The translations under genes and the position numbers were made by a program. Below the pieces are notes generated by a model. That model was given only the letters and a program-made list of their open reading frames with translations. It ran no database searches and was not told the DNA's origin. A stretch of DNA of 64,000 bases, from contig JH720355.1 of assembly GCA_000231825.2 (NCBI GenBank), forward strand, positions 329,475 through 393,474. Direction: 5' to 3'. Positions 32,437 through 52,032 of the stretch are shown in pieces. The first letter of the stretch is position 1. The number at the start of each line of letters is the position of its first letter. This DNA is from Tetrahymena elliotti 4EA. Its lineage: Eukaryota > Ciliophora > Oligohymenophorea > Hymenostomatida > Tetrahymenidae.

Positions 32437-34347
32437 TCATTTTCTTCCTCCTTTACCAGAGAATGATTTCCCTCCCTTTCCTCCAAAGGACTTTCCTCCT
32501 TTGCCTCCAAAAGATTTACCACCTTTACCTCCAAAGGATTTTCCACCACTTCCTCCAAAGGATTTACCTCCTTTTCCTCCAAAAGATTTACCACCCTTTC
32601 CTCCGAAAGAATCTCTGCCACCAAAGGATTTTCCTCCTCTTCCTCCAGCGGAATCTCTACCTCCAAAGGATTTGCCACCTCTTCCTGCAGAGGAATCTCT
32701 ACCGCCAAAGGATTTACCACCTCTTCCTACTGAAGAATCTCTACCACCAAAGGATTTTCCACCTCTTCCTGCGGAGGAATCTCTACCAAAGGATTTACCN
32801 NNNNNNNNNNNNNNNNNNNNNNNNNNNNNNNNNNNNNNNNNNNNNNNNNNNNNNNNNNNNNNNNNNNNNNNNNNNNNNNNNNNNNNNNNNNNNNNNNNNC
32901 TACCACCAAAGGATTTTCCACCTCTTCCTGCGGAGGAATCTCTACCAAAGGATTTACCACCTCTTCCTACTGAAGAATCTCTACCACCAAAGGACTTGCC
33001 TCCTTTACCTCCAAAGGATTTACCTCCTTTACCACCAAAAGATTTACCTCCCTTACCACCGTAAGATCTTTCACCTCTTCCTCTCATGTCTGTTCCGAAC
33101 TTAGAAGAGCCTGAGCCTTGAGGTTTATATTTATCATCCTTTGTAATTTTCTTGGCTATTGGGTGTGGTTTTTTGTCATGTTATTTATTTCCCTTCTTTC
33201 CAGGCTTAAGCATAAATTCAGAGAGATCTTTTGCTTTTTCACCTTTAACTTTAATTTCTTCTTTCCATTTTTCAATAGCTTATAAATTTTCTCTTTTTTC
33301 TCTAGACTTTAATTGTTCCTTCTTTGCCTTTAAAATACGTTATAATTTACGAGATTCCTAACGTTATTTCTTTTCTTCAAAAGATTTAATGTTTTCCTAT
33401 TCTATGACAAGCTTAGTTCTTATCTTGTTCATAATCTTATCACTCTTAAACATTTCAGCAAAGTAATCATCAGGTCTCTTAGTAGGTATTCCTTCTTGTT
33501 AAAGATACTTTAATGCTATTTGTGCATTTCCAAGAGTAACATTATAAAATTAAACTTCACGTTAAATATCTTCAGTAACATCAATACCTTTAACAATTTC
33601 TATTGATTTATCACTAACGAGAGATAAGTGCTCATTCCAAGGAATTTTTTATCCCTAGGGAACTCTGAGTCTCTTTCTGAAAGACTCTTAAATTTAATTA
33701 ACTCTCTCTAATATCTTATCTTTTTCATAAATAACTTTTTAATCTTCTTCTTCTTCATCTTGAGTCTTGAAGGCATTCTTGTTACCACCTTCTACTCCTT
33801 CAGCACCAGCAAAGAAATGGTCTTCAACATCATCTCCTTCACTTTCTTCGATATCTTCAAATTAATCTTCTTCTTCTTCAAAATCACTTTCTTCAACTTC
33901 TTCTTATTCTTACTTTTTAGCTTTTCCTTATTCCTTCTTCAAAGCCTTGGCTGCTTCCTAAGCAAGTTTTTGAATATTTAATTGAGATTTATTTTTATCA
34001 TCCTTTTAGATTTTTTTAGTTTTATTTTATGAAACCTATTTTTCTGTTTATTTTTTTTAGTTGTTGGAAACATTATTTTGATTTTTTTAAGGTTTTTAGT
34101 CTTTCTTTTATTGCTTGACTTCCTCCTTTTTTGTTTCAACTTTTTATACAACAGGAGTTTCCTTCTTTTATTCCTTCTTTCCATTCTTGTTCTACTAAAG
34201 ATTTTATTTATCTTTCAATTGAATTTGTTCCTTAGATTTTTGACCTTAGTTTTACTTGCTAGCAGGGGCCTAAGGAGTAATTTCTACCTTTTTATTATCA
34301 GCACCTTGAGGTTTCTTTTATTCTTATTTGTTAATCTTCTTTCCCAT
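32437..34347 (-). CDS. EBP2: EBP2, nucleolar rRNA-processing/60S biogenesis factor with Gly-rich repeat tail
   Basis: The ATG is at 34347, no intron is needed, and the TGA is at 32437-32439. The core is a clear EBP2 match: IQREVQFYNVTLGNAQIALK, then PTKRPDDYFAEMFKSDKIMN and KIRTKLVIEQENIKSFEEKK, followed by a basic helix (RQESRKLQRILKAKKEQLKS). EBP2 acts in the nucleolus in pre-rRNA processing and 60S assembly. The N-terminus is Lys/Gln-rich with an acidic block (EEEEDQFEDIEESEGDD). The C-terminus carries an unusual array of GKSFGG and RDSSAGRGGKSFGG units, resembling a nucleolar Gly/Arg-rich domain but with Lys/Ser/Phe. A 100-N gap interrupts the array at 32800-32899, so the true protein length is uncertain: about 636 residues counting Ns, about 583 if the gap is an artefact. 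The plus-strand Pro-rich reading of the array is its antisense shadow. Confidence 0.94.
32501..33064 (-). repeat. Tandem repeat encoding (RDSSAGR)GGKSFGG units in EBP2
   Basis: Short units of about 18 and 39-42 nt are repeated with small variations. On the coding strand they give GGK/GGKSFGG near both ends and RDSSAGRGGKSFGG or RDSSVGRGGKSFGG in the middle. All indels are multiples of three, so the reading frame is kept. The array surrounds the assembly gap, as expected for a repeat that short reads cannot span. Confidence 0.9.
32800..32899. other. Assembly gap: exactly 100 N
   Basis: Exactly 100 ambiguous bases, the conventional size for a gap of unknown length. The 59 bases before the gap (32741-32799) are identical to the 59 bases after it (32900-32958), which suggests that two contig ends overlap rather than flank missing sequence. 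Confidence 0.97.
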
Positions 34348-43895: not shown

Positions 43896-46800
43896 ATGAG
43901 TCGGGATATTGCTAATTTGTAATCGCCTAACGATAATTTATCAAATCACTCTAATGGCGTAATTGAAATTACATCATTTACTTCTACTTAACTATCAAAT
44001 TACATCATTCAAATCTGTTTGATCATATAAAACTATTAACTCTTAAAATATCCTACAATATTTAACTTTATTTTTTAAATTTAGCAACAAAAAGGTTCAA
44101 GCAAGTTACTTCCTCAAGGTAAAAAAGCTTATTTTGTAGAACTGTACATTTTTGAAGTGTTGTAAAATTTATATAAGGACTTGAAAGAAATAGTAGAAGA
44201 TAATATTAATCTCAATGATTGATGTATCTCTCTAAGCAAATAATAAATTTTGAATTTCTTTTATTCACTTCAATAAATATTAATGAGCTTATTATGAAAA
44301 ATTATTTTAATGGGTATAAAATGTGTTGTTAAACTTATTTCTTAATATAATAACTTTAGATCAAGTTTCAGTGTCATCTAAAACTCAAAAATCTCAAACC
44401 TTTACTAGAAAGCATTCAAGCAAAAATGAATTAGGAGATAGAAAGGGATGGTAAAAAGTTAAGGTAAATATTTAAGAAAAAAGCATACAATCAAAAAACA
44501 GATACAATTTTTTTATTTTTTTATTTTTTCTTTTTTAGTGAAGTAAACAATGGAATTCTTAGTAATTATGAGCTGCAAATAGTTTTAATTACTACTTTCC
44601 TTTAGTTATTTTTATTGGCTTCAATTTTTGTTTTGAATAGTTAAAAACAAACAAAATTTTTGGTTTTAATAATTAAACACTTTTTAAATCAGTTTTATTT
44701 AGAAAAACTCGTTGATAGTACTTACACATAAATTACGATGACTATTGTAACAGTTTATGCGCTTTTTGGTGATGATATCAGAGTTTTGAGTACAAACAAA
44801 GATGGAGATAATTATTTTTGGGCTTTAAATTGTGTTTGTCTTGGATTATTTTGTTTAGAAATAGTAATTAATTGCATTGCTAAGGTAAAATTTCAACATT
44901 ATTACAAATTAGAACTTTTTTTATTATTTCAGTCTCTCTCCTTTTGAATACTTTTTATTTTCTAAGTTCTTCAAATTTCAAATAAAATCATCCCATCTCT
45001 TAAAAATTATTCAGTAAATAAAACACACATTACTCTAAATTATTTATTTTTCTACAAACTTAGAACAAAGTTTTCACTTTTACCTTAAATTTTTTTGCTT
45101 AAATTTTAAAATATCTTTAAAGCAAAAAAGCAATAAATCTATTTTTAAAAAAACTTTAGAAAGGATATTTCAACAGCTTCTTCTTTTATTTGGATATTAT
45201 ATCTACAGCTTCTCTTATACTAGATATAGGATGGGTTTCTAATGCCATGTTTAACTAAGGTGGAGGTTCATAAAATGCTGCCTAAGTTGCTAAGTAAATT
45301 AATAGTTAAACATTTCAAAAATATTTATTTTTTAAATTTGATAGAGCTGGTAGAGCTTCTCGTGTTGGTACAAGAGCTGGTAGAGTTGTTCGTATAGTCA
45401 GACTAATTCGTCTTGTTAAGCTTTATAAATTAGCACAACAAAGAATCAAATTAGAAGCTGAAAAACTGAAAGCACTTGAAAGTGAATAAAACTAACTTGA
45501 AGATTAACAGAACTAAGATCCAAACCATCATTAACATCAAGAATTAGGTAGAATTTAAAGATCAAATATTTTTTTTTAACGCTGTTTTAAATGATAGGAA
45601 ATACTACAACAATTTAGAAGAAGGTAAATAATATTATCATGAAAGACAGATTTGCAAAGAGCTTACAAATAAAGAAGCAAAAATCAGGTATATCAATTTA
45701 GTAAGTTTAAGAGACAGATGTAGTGAAAGAAGTACAACCAACTAACTAAACTCCAAATGAAATTAATAATGATAAATCTAAAGAAAACGAAGAATAAAGG
45801 CTTTTAGAAGAATAGAAAGCTTTAAAAAGTAAGCTCCCTCCTCTAATTAACTAATCTAACAGTTAAGAAGGTTCACCAAATAGTAAAATTAATTTTTAGA
45901 ATAAAAAATAATTAAACAAATATTATTAACATAATCAAGACATTCCTAGTAAGCCTGTTGTCCTAGAGAAGTATAAAGATGATCCTCTTTTGCAATTAAC
46001 TAATGTCAATACTGATTAAAATGACACAACAGAAAAGAAAGATGTCAAGAAGATGGCTAAAGATATTATCTAAATAAATTAGAAAAAGCATACTAAAAAA
46101 TATGGTAAAAATTCAACCCTTCATAGATTAGAAAAGAAATAGGAAGGTGAATAAAAATCAGAAAAGAAATCAGGTGAAGTATCTGGAGGTGAGAGTAAAG
46201 TAGGCTAAAAACTTACAGATTTGACAACTCAGAGAGTTATTATTATTGTCCTTTGTATTATGGTTAGCATTCCTATTTTTGATCAATCAACTTATGTAGA
46301 ATCCTAAACATCTTATGATTCTGGTCTTTTATTTATGTATTAGTAAGATATTATTTTTATTTATATTTATTTATTTTAAAATAAATTCTTATTCAAAAAT
46401 TTATTTATTCAAAAGCAATTTTAAGGATAACTAGATAACTCTCTCTTAAGAATCTATGAAATTATATTTAGATCATTCAAATGTAATTATTTAAATATTT
46501 CCCTTTTTTTACTCTTATTTTCTCAATATCAAATTTTAATATGATTTAATGAAACTGCAACCTCAAATTCCAATTTTAAATATTTCTTAAAATAAATTAG
46601 TCACAAAGGAACCCAATCTTATACATGTCTAATAATTATGGCATCAATCAGTATCCTTGGGGTGGCCACTATCCTAATGAAGTTTTCAATGATAAAAAAG
46701 ATGATCCATCTACTTATAGAGAAGAAGATAAATATTTTTATACCATGAATGTTGATGTAATTTATTGCTTGAAATCAAATAATTTTATTTTCTCTTGAGT

Positions 46801-48497
46801 AAGTTAAAGAACATTCTTACATTAATTAAAATAGGGTGAATTGATATCTTACAGTATTGTTGATATCAAAGGTGACAATTAAATTAATGCGATCTTATCT
46901 ATTGTTAGAACTATATTTGTGTCTATTGTGATTACTATTGCTTTCCTTTCATTTTCTGCTGATGTAGAGCATTTAGTTTTGGAACCTATTGCTAATATGA
47001 TGAAAAAAGTAAGGAGAATAGCAGACAATCCACTAGAAGCAGCTCAAATAGAAGAAAGAGAAGCTCTAGCGATTGAGTAATTATAAAAGGATGGTAATCT
47101 AAAGCAACTCTAAAAATTAAAGGATTAAGAAGGGTATGAAACTGTTGTTCTTGAAAAACTAATCATGAAAATTGGAGCTCTGTTAGCTTTAGGTTTTGGG
47201 GAAGCAGGATCTGAAATTATTGCTTCAAATATGAGTAAAGGTGGCTCAGTTGATCCCATGATACCTGGTAAAAAAATGATGGCTATTTTTGGTTTTTGTG
47301 ATATTCGTAACTTTACAGATGCTACTGAAGTTCTTTAAACTGGTGTTATGCTTTTTGTCAATGAAATTGCTGAAATTACTCATTCTACAGTTGATTCTTT
47401 TTGTGGGCAATCAAATAAAAATATTGGCGATGCATTCTTATTAGTATGGAAATACTAAGAAGATGATTATTTCTATAATAGTGAAAACCAACTTGAATTA
47501 AAGGATACTTAAAAAGTACATAATCTTGCTGATCTTCCTGTATTAGCATTCCTTAAAATTATGGCTGGTATCACTATATCTAAAAAACTTTTCAAGTATC
47601 GTTAACACAAAGGTTTAAATGAAAGACTCAAAAACTACAGAGTAAAAATGGGTTTTGGACTACATGTTGGTTGGGCTATCGAAGGTGCAATAGGATCTAA
47701 TTTCAAAATTGATGCTTCTTATTTGAGTCCTAATGTTAATATGGCATCTCGTTTAGAAGCTGCCACCAAATAATTTGGTACTGGGCTTTTAATTAGGTAT
47801 TTTATTGCTTTCTTCATTTTTAACTTAATAATATAAAATATTTAAATAAAATAACAAGTGGGCCTTTATATAATGTTCTAACCAAAGAATGTTAAAACCA
47901 TTTAAGACACATTGATAGGGTTACTGTCAAGGGTTCTTTGGTCCCTTTAGGTAAATCTTACTATAAAATAACTAAAATATAAATTTTAATGAATAAATAA
48001 AAATTAGATTTGTACACTGTTGATGTACACTTAGATAACATAGTTCATAAGAAAGTAGGCAAGGATAGATTTGACAATGCTCATCTTAGTTTAGCTATTA
48101 AGAAAAAGAAGAGAGTCATTGAGAGAATGAAAAGAAATAAACTAAAAGAGTCTATTATTGATGGAACATTTAACCCTCACGAACTGTTTACCACAGATAA
48201 AGAATTAGTTGCCATGAGAGAATTCTTTATTCCTGTATTTTATATATTTATAAAAATTATTTAATATAATATTTTTTATTTACATAGGAATTTTACTCAT
48301 AATGGAAAGTTGGTTTTCAATATTATCTTGATGGTAAGTGGCCTTAAGCTAAAGAAATATTCTAAAAAACACTTGTAATGCTTAAAAGTAATGGTATTAT
48401 TGATGGTCCCTCGAATACTCTAATTGAAGTTATAGAGGAAAGCGGCAATAAAGCACCTTCAGATTGGAATGGTTTCCGTGTCTTAACAGAAAAATGA
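43896..48497 (+). CDS. Voltage-sensor/class III nucleotidyl cyclase fusion, 1066 aa, 14 exons
   Basis: The model ATG 43896 to TGA 48495-48497 has 13 introns, all in phase, and sums to 3201 coding nt. Exons start at 43896, 44085, 44366, 44544, 44693, 45160, 45345, 45598, 46416, 46601, 46835, 47859, 48008 and 48288. Residues of about 80-200 form an ion-channel-type voltage sensor: S1 (MTIVTVYALFGDDIR), S2-S3 (FFYLDIISTASLILDIGW), and an S4 with Arg at regular intervals (TRAGRVVRIVRLIRLVKLYK). A linker, a helix (TQRVIIIVLCIMVSIPIF), a short extracellular segment and another helix (IVRTIFVSIVITIAFLSF) follow. The cyclase domain has metal-binding D726 (FGFCDIRNFT) and D769 (NIGDAFLLVW), then SPNVNMASRLEAATKQ. 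No pore helix is evident. It should make a cyclic nucleotide in response to membrane potential; whether cAMP or cGMP is not decided here. Confidence 0.92.
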
Positions 48498-49266: not shown

Positions 49267-52032
49267 ATGGATGCTGAAGATAGGTTTTTAGAGGCTATTT
49301 AGTAAAGAAAAAGGAATGATTTACATTAAAAATTTTTTGAAGAAGATGGATAGCTTTAATTTATTACAACTCCTCTCTTCACTAATTTTACTGGGAAAAA
49401 AAAGATTGTTCCATATAGAAATACACATTGTCTGAAGCCTGAATGCATATATGATGAATAAGAGCTTTTAAATAGATTTAAGCTTTCAGGATACAGTACT
49501 TTTGCTACATTTATTTGCCATACATGTAGAAAATAGATATAACTTCTTAAGTTTACCTATGATAAAGCTCTTGAAGATATCATAGAAGAGTAAATAGATC
49601 AATTATTTTCATCATTTTAAGATTCAATTATTTTGATCAATAATAGTATTCAAAAACAAGTATTGTGAAATTTTCATTTTTAAAACTTTTTTAAATGATA
49701 TTAGTGTCTGGAAGCATTACAACAAAGAGACTAAATTAGTATGTGAGAAAGTTAAAATATTCAGAAATGGAAAATGGGAACCTATTTTACCTGCTTATAT
49801 TAAAAATTTAGAAGAAAATTTGAGAAGAGAATTAGAAGGACAGTAGGTAAAAGAAAGGGTAATACCTGGTTACGATGTTCCAGAAGATATGCTTGAAGAA
49901 TAAGATGGTGCTATAAACAAAAAGTTTGCAGTCAAAAAAATGGTTGTGTATAAAAATCTAATTAAATTGACAGATTTTAGTGCAAGTGAATATTAAAGTT
50001 TAAATTACTAATATTCTAATGAAGCAGACCCCTTGAAAGGACTTAAATCTTAAATGTTTAAGAGATATGGATAGAGTATTGCAAACTCTGATTTTATTAC
50101 AATACAAAACGAAACATATTTTCCAAAACATATTATGGCATTTTTTTTGAAGTACCTAGAGGATTGGGCGAATAGGATTTTAGTAAATGAACTTGATTAA
50201 AAATCATACTTATTAAATAAAAAGAATCCATCATTAAATAAAGCTAAATTCTTGAGTTTTTTTGTGGTGAAAGTGATATCCTATGACTCCTTTTATCATT
50301 TGGCTAAATATGAGATATGGTCTGATAACATGAATTCAACCAGATAAAAACTTGGCAAAGAATAATACATAACCTAAATCGATAAAATATTTCTAGTGAT
50401 GCATTATGATGAGAGGTGGATACTTACTGTATCCGATCCAAGGACAAAAAAAATAAAAATAGTTGATTTTTTAGATAGAGAAATGAGTAGAGTAAATTGA
50501 TTAAGGAAAAAAGAAAATAAATTTATATTTTTTAATAATTAGATTAAAGTAGATGAAGTTGATGATATTTCTAAATTTATTATTGAGAAAGAACTTTTTC
50601 CTATAAAGGTGGATATTTAAATTGACAGTCCTGAAATACAAACAATTAATTATTATAGTGATTGTGGCTTTTATATTTCAAATTACTTATACAAAGCAAT
50701 AATTACTGATAGAGTGTTAGGTGAGTTACCTAGTTTTAATGTTAAATATTTTGAAAAAAATAGAATGAGAGATTTGCTGTGCTGGTTATTTTTAAAGTTT
50801 ACATATTTGAACGATGCTGATTAGTAAATATAAATGAAAGATCTTGAACCAGTTCAAGAATCTTACATTCAAGAAGAGTTAGAAAAGGAGAAAGAAGAAT
50901 TAAAAGAGCAAAATGATTTCGAATATGATGTTATAGAAAGATGGAACTTAGACAGATCTAGTTCTTCAATGAGCCATTAAAATTCATAACTTGAAAAAAG
51001 TCTTAGTTAATAATAAAACTCTAGAATAGGATTAGACAGATAAAATAGCAAATTAATGGGTAGTTTCTTGAATGATAATAAGGCTAATTCTTTAAATAAA
51101 CACCCAAGCTTTTAATCTGAATCTTCAATCCATTCAAATATGAGATAGAGTTTAGGAAAACAAAATAAAAATTATGATTCCATATTTAAATAGTAAGCAT
51201 CTTTAAAGCCATCTCAAAGTGATCAAAATTTTTTATCATCCCAAAGAAGGAAATCTAACTTATCACAAATTTCTTCAATTTCTTAGAATTAAAAGCTACC
51301 ATCTTTAAAAAAAGTTGAAAGTGAGCAAGCACCATATTTTGTCTCAACAAAAGGAGAGTTAAAGAATATTCTCTAGAATTGGTATTAAGATGTAAATTTA
51401 ATTAAATTATTTAAATTTTGTACCTAATATAAACAATAAAAAAGGTTTTATAAGAAGCTATGTAGCTTAAATAGTAAAGAGAACAAGAAGAGATATAAAA
51501 AAAGCTTTAAGATGAATTATAATTTTATCAAAATTAAGATAATTATGGTAATTCAAATATGAGTGCATATTAAGATCAGTAAGATGAAAAATAAAAATTA
51601 TTTGAAATTTACAAAAAGAATTTCGATTAAAATAGATAGAATTATTTATAAAATGAACTGGATAAATAGTTTTCGAATGGTATAGATTATAGAATGCTTG
51701 ATTAACTTAGTGTTGAAGATTTATCTAATCTTCTTATTTAATTTTAGTAGCTTAAAAAGCTGGATAATCCTGAATTATAAGGACTAGATGTAATTGAGCT
51801 AAAAAATTAAATGAATAGTCTGAATGTAGACCCATTAGCTTAAAGTCTTGGTCTAGACTTTTCTAATTTAAACCCATAAGAAATGATGGAATTAGCTTAG
51901 TTTAACTAAATGCTGCAGTAAAATATAATGTAAACAGTGAATTAGCAAGCTTAAAAATCTAGTAAACATAAAAAAAGAGGGAAGTCGAAGAATAGCAAAA
52001 AGAAAAAAACCAAAAAATAAAGCTAAGAGTGA
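49267..52032 (+). CDS. SP-RING-like plus Ulp1-like domain fusion protein, 848 aa
   Basis: The ATG is at 49267. Introns lie at 49590-49704, 50492-50542 and 51392-51444; the TGA is at 52030-52032, and phases close. Residues of about 48-105 resemble a MIZ/SP-RING zinc finger of PIAS/Siz SUMO ligases: VPYRNTHCLKPECIYDEQEL, then CHTCRKQIQLLKFTYDKALED. C55, C60, C84 and C87 keep the spacing, but K57 stands where the His ligand belongs. Residues of about 230-460 resemble a Ulp1/C48 SUMO protease: FPKHIMAFFLKYLEDW, ERWILTVSDPRTKKIKIVDF, and SDCGFYISNYL with candidate nucleophile C411, Asp D362 and Gln Q403. The usual catalytic His is Arg345; a His occurs at 341. The rest is Ser/Gln-rich, then a helical region and a Lys-rich, nuclear-signal-like end (KHKKRGKSKNSKKKKTKK). 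Both domain calls are by eye. Confidence 0.75.

Follow-up and report, generated by a model that had tools for sequence, protein, structure and literature searches.

The question raised by this locus is whether a single protein joins a SUMO-ligase-type SP-RING to a SUMO-protease-type Ulp1 domain, as was originally predicted for a gene in the window (the whole 64-kb stretch of Tetrahymena elliotti DNA that was analyzed), and what such a protein could do with the key histidine of each domain replaced.

Structure of the gene and its relatives

The whole gene covers positions 49267 to 52032 on the forward strand in four exons and three introns, uses the ciliate code (table 6), ends with a TGA stop, and encodes 848 amino acids. 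Exon 1 (49267-49589) contains the N-terminal stretch and the SP-RING core (residues 1 to 107 plus 2 bases) in a table 6 frame that matches the Tetrahymena utriculariae protein ABPG72_002148 (P0001). Intron 1 (49590-49704, 115 bp, GTAAAT...ATTAG) has its length fixed by colinearity with that species. The end of the SP-RING extension, the linker, and the first half of the Ulp1-like domain lie in the single open exon 2 (49705-50491). Intron 2 (50492-50542, 51 bp) falls inside the Ulp1-like domain, exon 3 (50543-51391) encodes its second half with the DCG motif and then the start of the tail, and intron 3 (51392-51444, 53 bp) precedes exon 4 (51445-52032) with the Gln-rich tail, its Lys-rich end, and the stop codon at 52030-52032; P0001 is continuous across introns 2 and 3. 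The length of 848 residues and the numbering of C55, K57, C60, C84, C87, R345, W346, D362, Q403, and C411 were reproduced as predicted. The predicted gene end at 50830 was too early, with the gene running 1.2 kb further.

The G+C content of the window was 18 to 30%. Between 47 and 54 kb, 44 frames of at least 80 amino acids were found with table 6 against one with table 1, and the long frames need TAA and TAG read as Gln, which marks the window as ciliate DNA. A simple gene-finder, whose training set included this gene, returned the same four exons. An 873-amino-acid model with a 40-bp first intron was dropped, since its 25 extra residues are absent from P0001.

The T. utriculariae protein (853 amino acids) is 75% identical to the window protein and colinear with it, which supports the exons. 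Identical residues numbered 63/76 in the SP-RING, 26/31 in the extension, 36/53 in the linker, 225/270 in the Ulp-like region, and 279/388 in the tail, so that both domains are 83% identical between the species compared with 72% for the tail; of the N-terminal 139 residues, 118 are identical. P0001 was the sole relative in a collection of 5.8 billion proteins, even with the family profile at E ≤ 10, in which ciliates seem scarce. The fusion, which was to be looked for in other ciliates, is shared by T. utriculariae; beyond Tetrahymena no relative was found in this collection, an absence that means little given its seemingly few ciliates.

Genome searches covered the 90-Mb assembly of 134 contigs. 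With P0001 as the query, three further SP-RING-like places were found, namely, C8 (E = 7e-15), C86 (E = 2e-12), and C38 (E = 4e-6), and their gene models run on from the SP-RING into a second region. These three models are predictions of our own gene-finder trained on the 64-kb window only; genes scoring above 15 were considered, with sequences for proteins shorter than 1,400 amino acids. No fifth family member was among the best candidates scored when the genome was searched with each paralog.

Divergent SP-RING with a Siz/PIAS-type extension

The SP-RING-like zinc finger occupies residues 31 to 106 (49357-49584, forward strand) and is followed by a Siz/PIAS-type extension, 'VKIFRNGKWEPIL', at residues 107 to 137 (49585-49792, split by intron 1). 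The zinc ligands of SP-RINGs are C-H-C-C. In the window protein this set is incomplete: three cysteines, C55 (49429-49431), C84 (49516-49518), and C87 (49525-49527), are present, the His is replaced by K57 (49435-49437), and C60 (49444-49446) is an extra Cys. All four cysteines were invariant in the window protein, T. utriculariae, C8, C86, and C38, and the ligand His was missing in all five, its site being K in the window protein and C8, I in C86, and Q in C38. The Trp two residues before the third Cys of canonical SP-RINGs is Phe in 5/5 family sequences. The pattern C-x4-C-x(15-30)-C-x2-C matched once in 92,098 residues (six-frame table 6 frames of the window, at least 60 amino acids long) and in none of 5,000 shuffles of the window protein.

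Among PDB sequences, the five-sequence family profile ranked PIAS2 (E = 0.049) and NSE2 (0.13) as its top two, followed among the SUMO ligases by SIZ2 (0.43) and SIZ1 (0.89 and 1.5). SUMO E3 ligases made up five of the eight chains at E ≤ 10, none being significant singly, and unrelated chains ranked among them (an inhibitor at 0.22, T4 lysozyme at 0.37, and a LIM protein at 1.5). The PIAS2 and SIZ2 alignments placed C55, C60, C84, and C87 on cysteines and K57 on the His. In the extension, 'VKIFRNGKWEPIL' aligned with 'IKFQEDGSWCPM' of PIAS2 and 'VEISVDGSWKPI' of SIZ2, with 'VKIFRNGKWEPI' of the window protein on the 'DGSW-P' extension, and this motif is kept in the family. When the family SP-RING was compared by hhalign with four SP-RINGs of the same genome (L006, L007, L008, and L010, out of 10 zf-MIZ places), a probability of 90.6, an E value of 1.3e-6, and a score of 40.6 were obtained; none of 150 column shuffles reached this score (maximum, 21.8), and the reversed profile scored 10.4.

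Pfam did not recover either domain. The zf-MIZ (PF02891) and Peptidase_C48 (PF02902) models, with which the original prediction was to be checked, found no family at E values up to 10 in either the window protein or P0001; the HMMER filters of this search discard most matches weaker than about 0.1. The window protein lies outside both models and is therefore no Pfam-level member of either family, and the window gene was likewise not among the 10 places of a genome-wide zf-MIZ search. Among the paralogs, zf-MIZ was the best model for C38, with an E value of 0.024 that stays below the cut-off, and did not match C8 or C86; a canonical SP-RING used as a control gave 3.9e-15. Since Pfam finds neither domain, the domains are named from matches to PDB sequences, profile comparisons, and conservation within the family. 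An AlphaFold model of the SP-RING part was of low confidence (mean pLDDT, 42), probably for want of relatives.

By these comparisons, residues 31 to 137 are a divergent SP-RING with a Siz/PIAS-type extension. The four cysteines are kept in sequences whose SP-RING parts are only 26 to 37% identical across the paralogs, and the zinc site therefore probably persists. Perhaps C60 replaces the lost His and the site has been rebuilt as C-C-C-C.

Ulp1-like domain lacking the catalytic histidine

The Ulp1-like domain extends over approximately residues 191 to 460 (49952-50812, forward strand, split by intron 2). A phmmer search of 177,635 distinct PDB sequences with this region returned yeast Ulp1 (1euv) as the first of four matches (E = 9.9e-7), the next being unrelated (0.13). 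With the family Ulp profile, yeast Ulp1 was again the first, of 11 matches (E = 2.9e-5), followed by ribosomal proteins at about 0.05. An HMM built from the five C48 proteins of the same genome gave the window domain 18.1 bits, compared with at most 4.0 in 300 shuffles, and its alignment ran along the length of the HMM with R345-W346 on HW, DCG on DCG, and C411 on the catalytic Cys. T. utriculariae was just above its shuffles with this HMM (7.0 bits against at most 5.3), C8 stayed under its shuffles, and no match was reported for C86 or C38. The comparison with the genome's own C48 proteins was marginal in other forms: by phmmer the window domain exceeded the shuffles with none of the five taken singly, and hhalign of the family Ulp profile with three of the five gave a probability of 1.8 and a score of 21.9, compared with 21.5 for the best of 150 shuffles. 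A genome-wide Peptidase_C48 search listed five places, and the window gene was not among them; a Pfam control from L027 gave 2.2e-22 for the family.

These matches, the SP-RING profile match, and the exon 2 shared by the two domains confirm that one chain carries both an SP-RING-like and an Ulp1-like domain. Separate transcripts for the two parts are unlikely, because exon 2 reaches from the end of the SP-RING extension into the Ulp1-like domain and the paralog C38 has both in one open exon.

The His-Asp-Cys triad with its oxyanion Gln is incomplete in the window protein. R345 (50414-50416) stands at the His site, followed by W346; D362 (50465-50467) is in the expected place of the Asp; and C411 (50663-50665) lies in D410-C411-G412, so that Asp and Cys remain and His and Gln have been lost. 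None of the five family sequences has the catalytic His, and the observation that both domains lack their key His (K57 and R345) thus extends to the whole family. Q403, which had been proposed as the oxyanion Gln, did not hold up in this role, as it is Lys in T. utriculariae and lies eight residues before C411; the oxyanion Gln of Ulp1/SENP is, we assume, six before the Cys, where the aligned residue here is Thr or Ile. W346, beside the lost His, is invariant in all five sequences. The position that we take to correspond to Ulp1 Trp448, presumably part of the SUMO-tail tunnel, is Tyr or Phe here and is not kept in the paralogs, and binding of the SUMO tail by the Ulp1-like fold is therefore uncertain. 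The AlphaFold model of this part had a low mean pLDDT of 32, again probably for want of relatives.

From its residues, the Ulp1-like domain is probably a dead pseudoprotease. Of the two readings in the original prediction, the dead protease is favored by the losses of His and Cys, and the regulated bifunctional enzyme is unsupported for the protease half.

Paralogs in the same genome

The three paralogs appear, by their sequences, to share the layout of SP-RING plus second region with the window gene. In C38, residues 1 to 401, which include both regions, form one unbroken open frame, and the join of the two domains in C38 is therefore independent of splicing. At the sites aligned with the His, Asp, and Cys of the triad, C8 has Gln, Asp, and Cys; C86 has Val, Asn, and Ser; and C38 has Thr, an unclear Asp site, and Ser, so that the catalytic Cys is missing in two paralogs. 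As no member retains the His and two paralogs have also lost the Cys, the protease part was probably dead before the family expanded. In the simplest history, the catalytic His would have been lost in the family ancestor and the Cys later in C86 and C38.

The second regions of the window protein and T. utriculariae, compared with those of the three paralogs, gave a probability of 85.8 and a score of 45.0, which none of 80 shuffles reached (maximum, 35.4), in support of their homology as a group. Compared with C8 alone or C38 alone, the same pair was narrowly above 80 shuffles, and C86 compared with C38 was clearly above them (0/80). Shuffles scored as high in 9/80 cases for C86 alone against the window pair and in 2/80 for C86 plus C38 against C8. 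The second region of C8 alone had no Ulp1 match in the PDB, and the Pfam Peptidase_C48 model matched none of the paralogs. For the long tails, homology was rejected, as the local alignment exceeded the best of 60 shuffles in none of the six paralog pairs.

A motif near LI(D/E)EYNxR(F/L) recurs by eye in the tails of C8, C86, and C38 (L022, L023, and L024). The C38 sequence was cut by hand at 'MEIDKIREAL'; the dropped upstream stretch looks EF-hand-like by eye and perhaps belongs to another gene. In one family alignment C38 was ended before a second Ulp1-like region, and in another, as in the open-frame check, at residue 401. This second Ulp1/SENP-like region of the C38 gene (L024, 4294-5381, reverse strand) lies past a Gln/Asn-rich stretch. 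It matched SENP2 (5aek) in the PDB with an E value of 1.1e-4, SENP1/2 accounting for 11 of 17 matches, and scored 9.0 bits with the local C48 HMM, compared with at most 4.1 in 300 shuffles; HW and DCG were not seen in it. Judged from its residues, C38 may carry two dead Ulp1-like domains.

Comparison with known systems

The four-Cys register, the residues before the first Cys, and the DG-W-P extension are common to the window protein and the Siz/PIAS SUMO E3 ligases (PDB 4fo9, 6u75, 5jne, and 3i2d). Unlike these ligases, the window protein lacks the zinc-ligand His, is joined to an Ulp1-like fold, and has no Pfam match, hence none for PINIT or SAP either. With the Ulp1/SENP proteases (PDB 1euv) it shares W, Asp, and DCG segments in the same order; it differs in the change of His to Arg, the lost oxyanion Gln, the lack of a Pfam match, and the loss of the Cys in two paralogs.

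The nearest parallel for the SP-RING is Ema2, an atypical SP-RING SUMO E3 of Tetrahymena that, according to the available part of PMC10830130, binds Ubc9 in vitro and enhances sumoylation. In knockout cells, high-molecular-weight SUMO conjugates fall to about 50% in mid-conjugation, and the protein is tied to DNA elimination (PMC10830130, same part). As described there, Ema2 belongs to the same genus and is likewise short of one canonical zinc ligand, but there it is the first Cys that is exchanged, for His, and in the window family it is the His that is lost. 'Ulp' does not occur in the text of PMC10830130. In the T. elliotti genome, the SP-RING at L010 (G000:C45:53835) has His for its first Cys (YHHSHPFDL...) and fits this partial description of Ema2. 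The genome's five Peptidase_C48 places are L001 to L005. HW, Asp, and DCG are present in the gene models of L026, L027, and L028, and ordinary C48 proteases therefore coexist with the dead ones.

Among the papers listed in open-access full-text searches, none was found to describe a protein carrying both an SP-RING and an Ulp1-like domain, and zf-MIZ and Peptidase_C48 stand as separate families in the available part of PMC2408969. A mobile-element origin of the fusion was considered and set aside, as searches of open-access full text found no paper joining SP-RING/MIZ and Ulp1/C48 with a transposase or transposon.

A20/TNFAIP3 is a ubiquitin-directed protein whose OTU protease is active and which has zinc fingers of its own. 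The window protein resembles it in that a domain type for attaching a modifier and one for removing it occur in the same chain, and differs in that its protease fold looks dead and the OTU of A20 is active.

Possible function and alternative explanations

The reading that we prefer, and to which we give about an even chance, is that the gene belongs to a small paralog family of the SUMO pathway, combining a divergent Siz/PIAS-like SP-RING with a catalytically dead Ulp1-like fold in a non-proteolytic SUMO adaptor or E3-like protein. In such a protein the SP-RING would keep its zinc site, possibly with C60 standing in for the His, and, by analogy with Ema2, would still contact Ubc9, so that this half could still work. 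The dead fold, in which the Trp beside the lost His is conserved, would serve as a reader, either holding SUMO or a SUMO-like modifier or bringing in modified substrates. Contact with Ubc9 together with a SUMO-reading fold would make the protein an adaptor or E3-like factor that does not cleave. A more specific version is put forward only tentatively and is rather doubtful: a Tetrahymena SUMO E3-like family in which SUMO is held by the retired protease fold, built into the ligase chain, instead of by the customary SUMO-interacting motif, and in which four Cys have come to form the SP-RING zinc site in place of C-H-C-C.

The loss of key residues from both domains, in the window protein and the three paralogs alike, and the divergence of the paralogous SP-RING parts to 26 to 37% identity would also suit two pseudo-domains that neither bind SUMO nor take part in SUMO chemistry and now act solely as protein-protein scaffolds. 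This is unlikely, though it deserves serious weight; the invariance of the four cysteines (5/5) and the conservation of the domains between species (83%, compared with 72% for the tail) point to a kept structure, and the extension motif is retained. An active SUMO E3 ligase with the Ulp1-like part as a substrate-binding module unrelated to SUMO is improbable: the ligand His is lost and the canonical Trp before the third Cys is Phe in all five sequences, although Ema2, whose SP-RING is without one canonical ligand, binds Ubc9 and promotes sumoylation according to the available part of PMC10830130.

Chance resemblance of the SP-RING-like or Ulp1-like part in an AT-rich genome would agree with the lack of Pfam matches, the weak single matches, and the marginal comparison with the local C48 proteins. 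It is very improbable in view of the shuffle comparisons of the SP-RING and of the Ulp-like domain of the window protein, the motifs in their proper order, the first rank of yeast Ulp1 among the 177,635 PDB sequences, and the conservation across the family. Hardly credible is a truly bifunctional enzyme in which C411 and D362 cut SUMO or act as a transferase by an unusual mechanism; Cys and Asp are retained in the window protein, T. utriculariae, and C8, but these same three have Arg or Gln at the His site, the oxyanion Gln is unconserved, and C86 and C38 have lost the Cys.

Under the preferred reading of a SUMO adaptor or E3-like protein, if the dead fold binds SUMO, the family would show how an enzyme that removes a modifier can be converted into a reading module within a protein that attaches one. 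The question can be approached in Tetrahymena, a workable model in which Ema2 is already linked to DNA elimination (PMC10830130, available part).

Neighboring genes in the window

The gene at 44738-48497 (forward strand) has a nucleotide-cyclase domain (PF00211, E = 2e-7, frame 46841-47989), and an Arg-rich stretch upstream of it, in a frame with no Pfam match, looks by eye like the voltage sensor of an ion channel. An EBP2-like rRNA-processing protein (PF05890, E = 1.7e-37) is encoded at 32437-34347 on the reverse strand and has a long tail of Gly-Gly-Lys-Ser-Phe repeats, part of which is unreadable.
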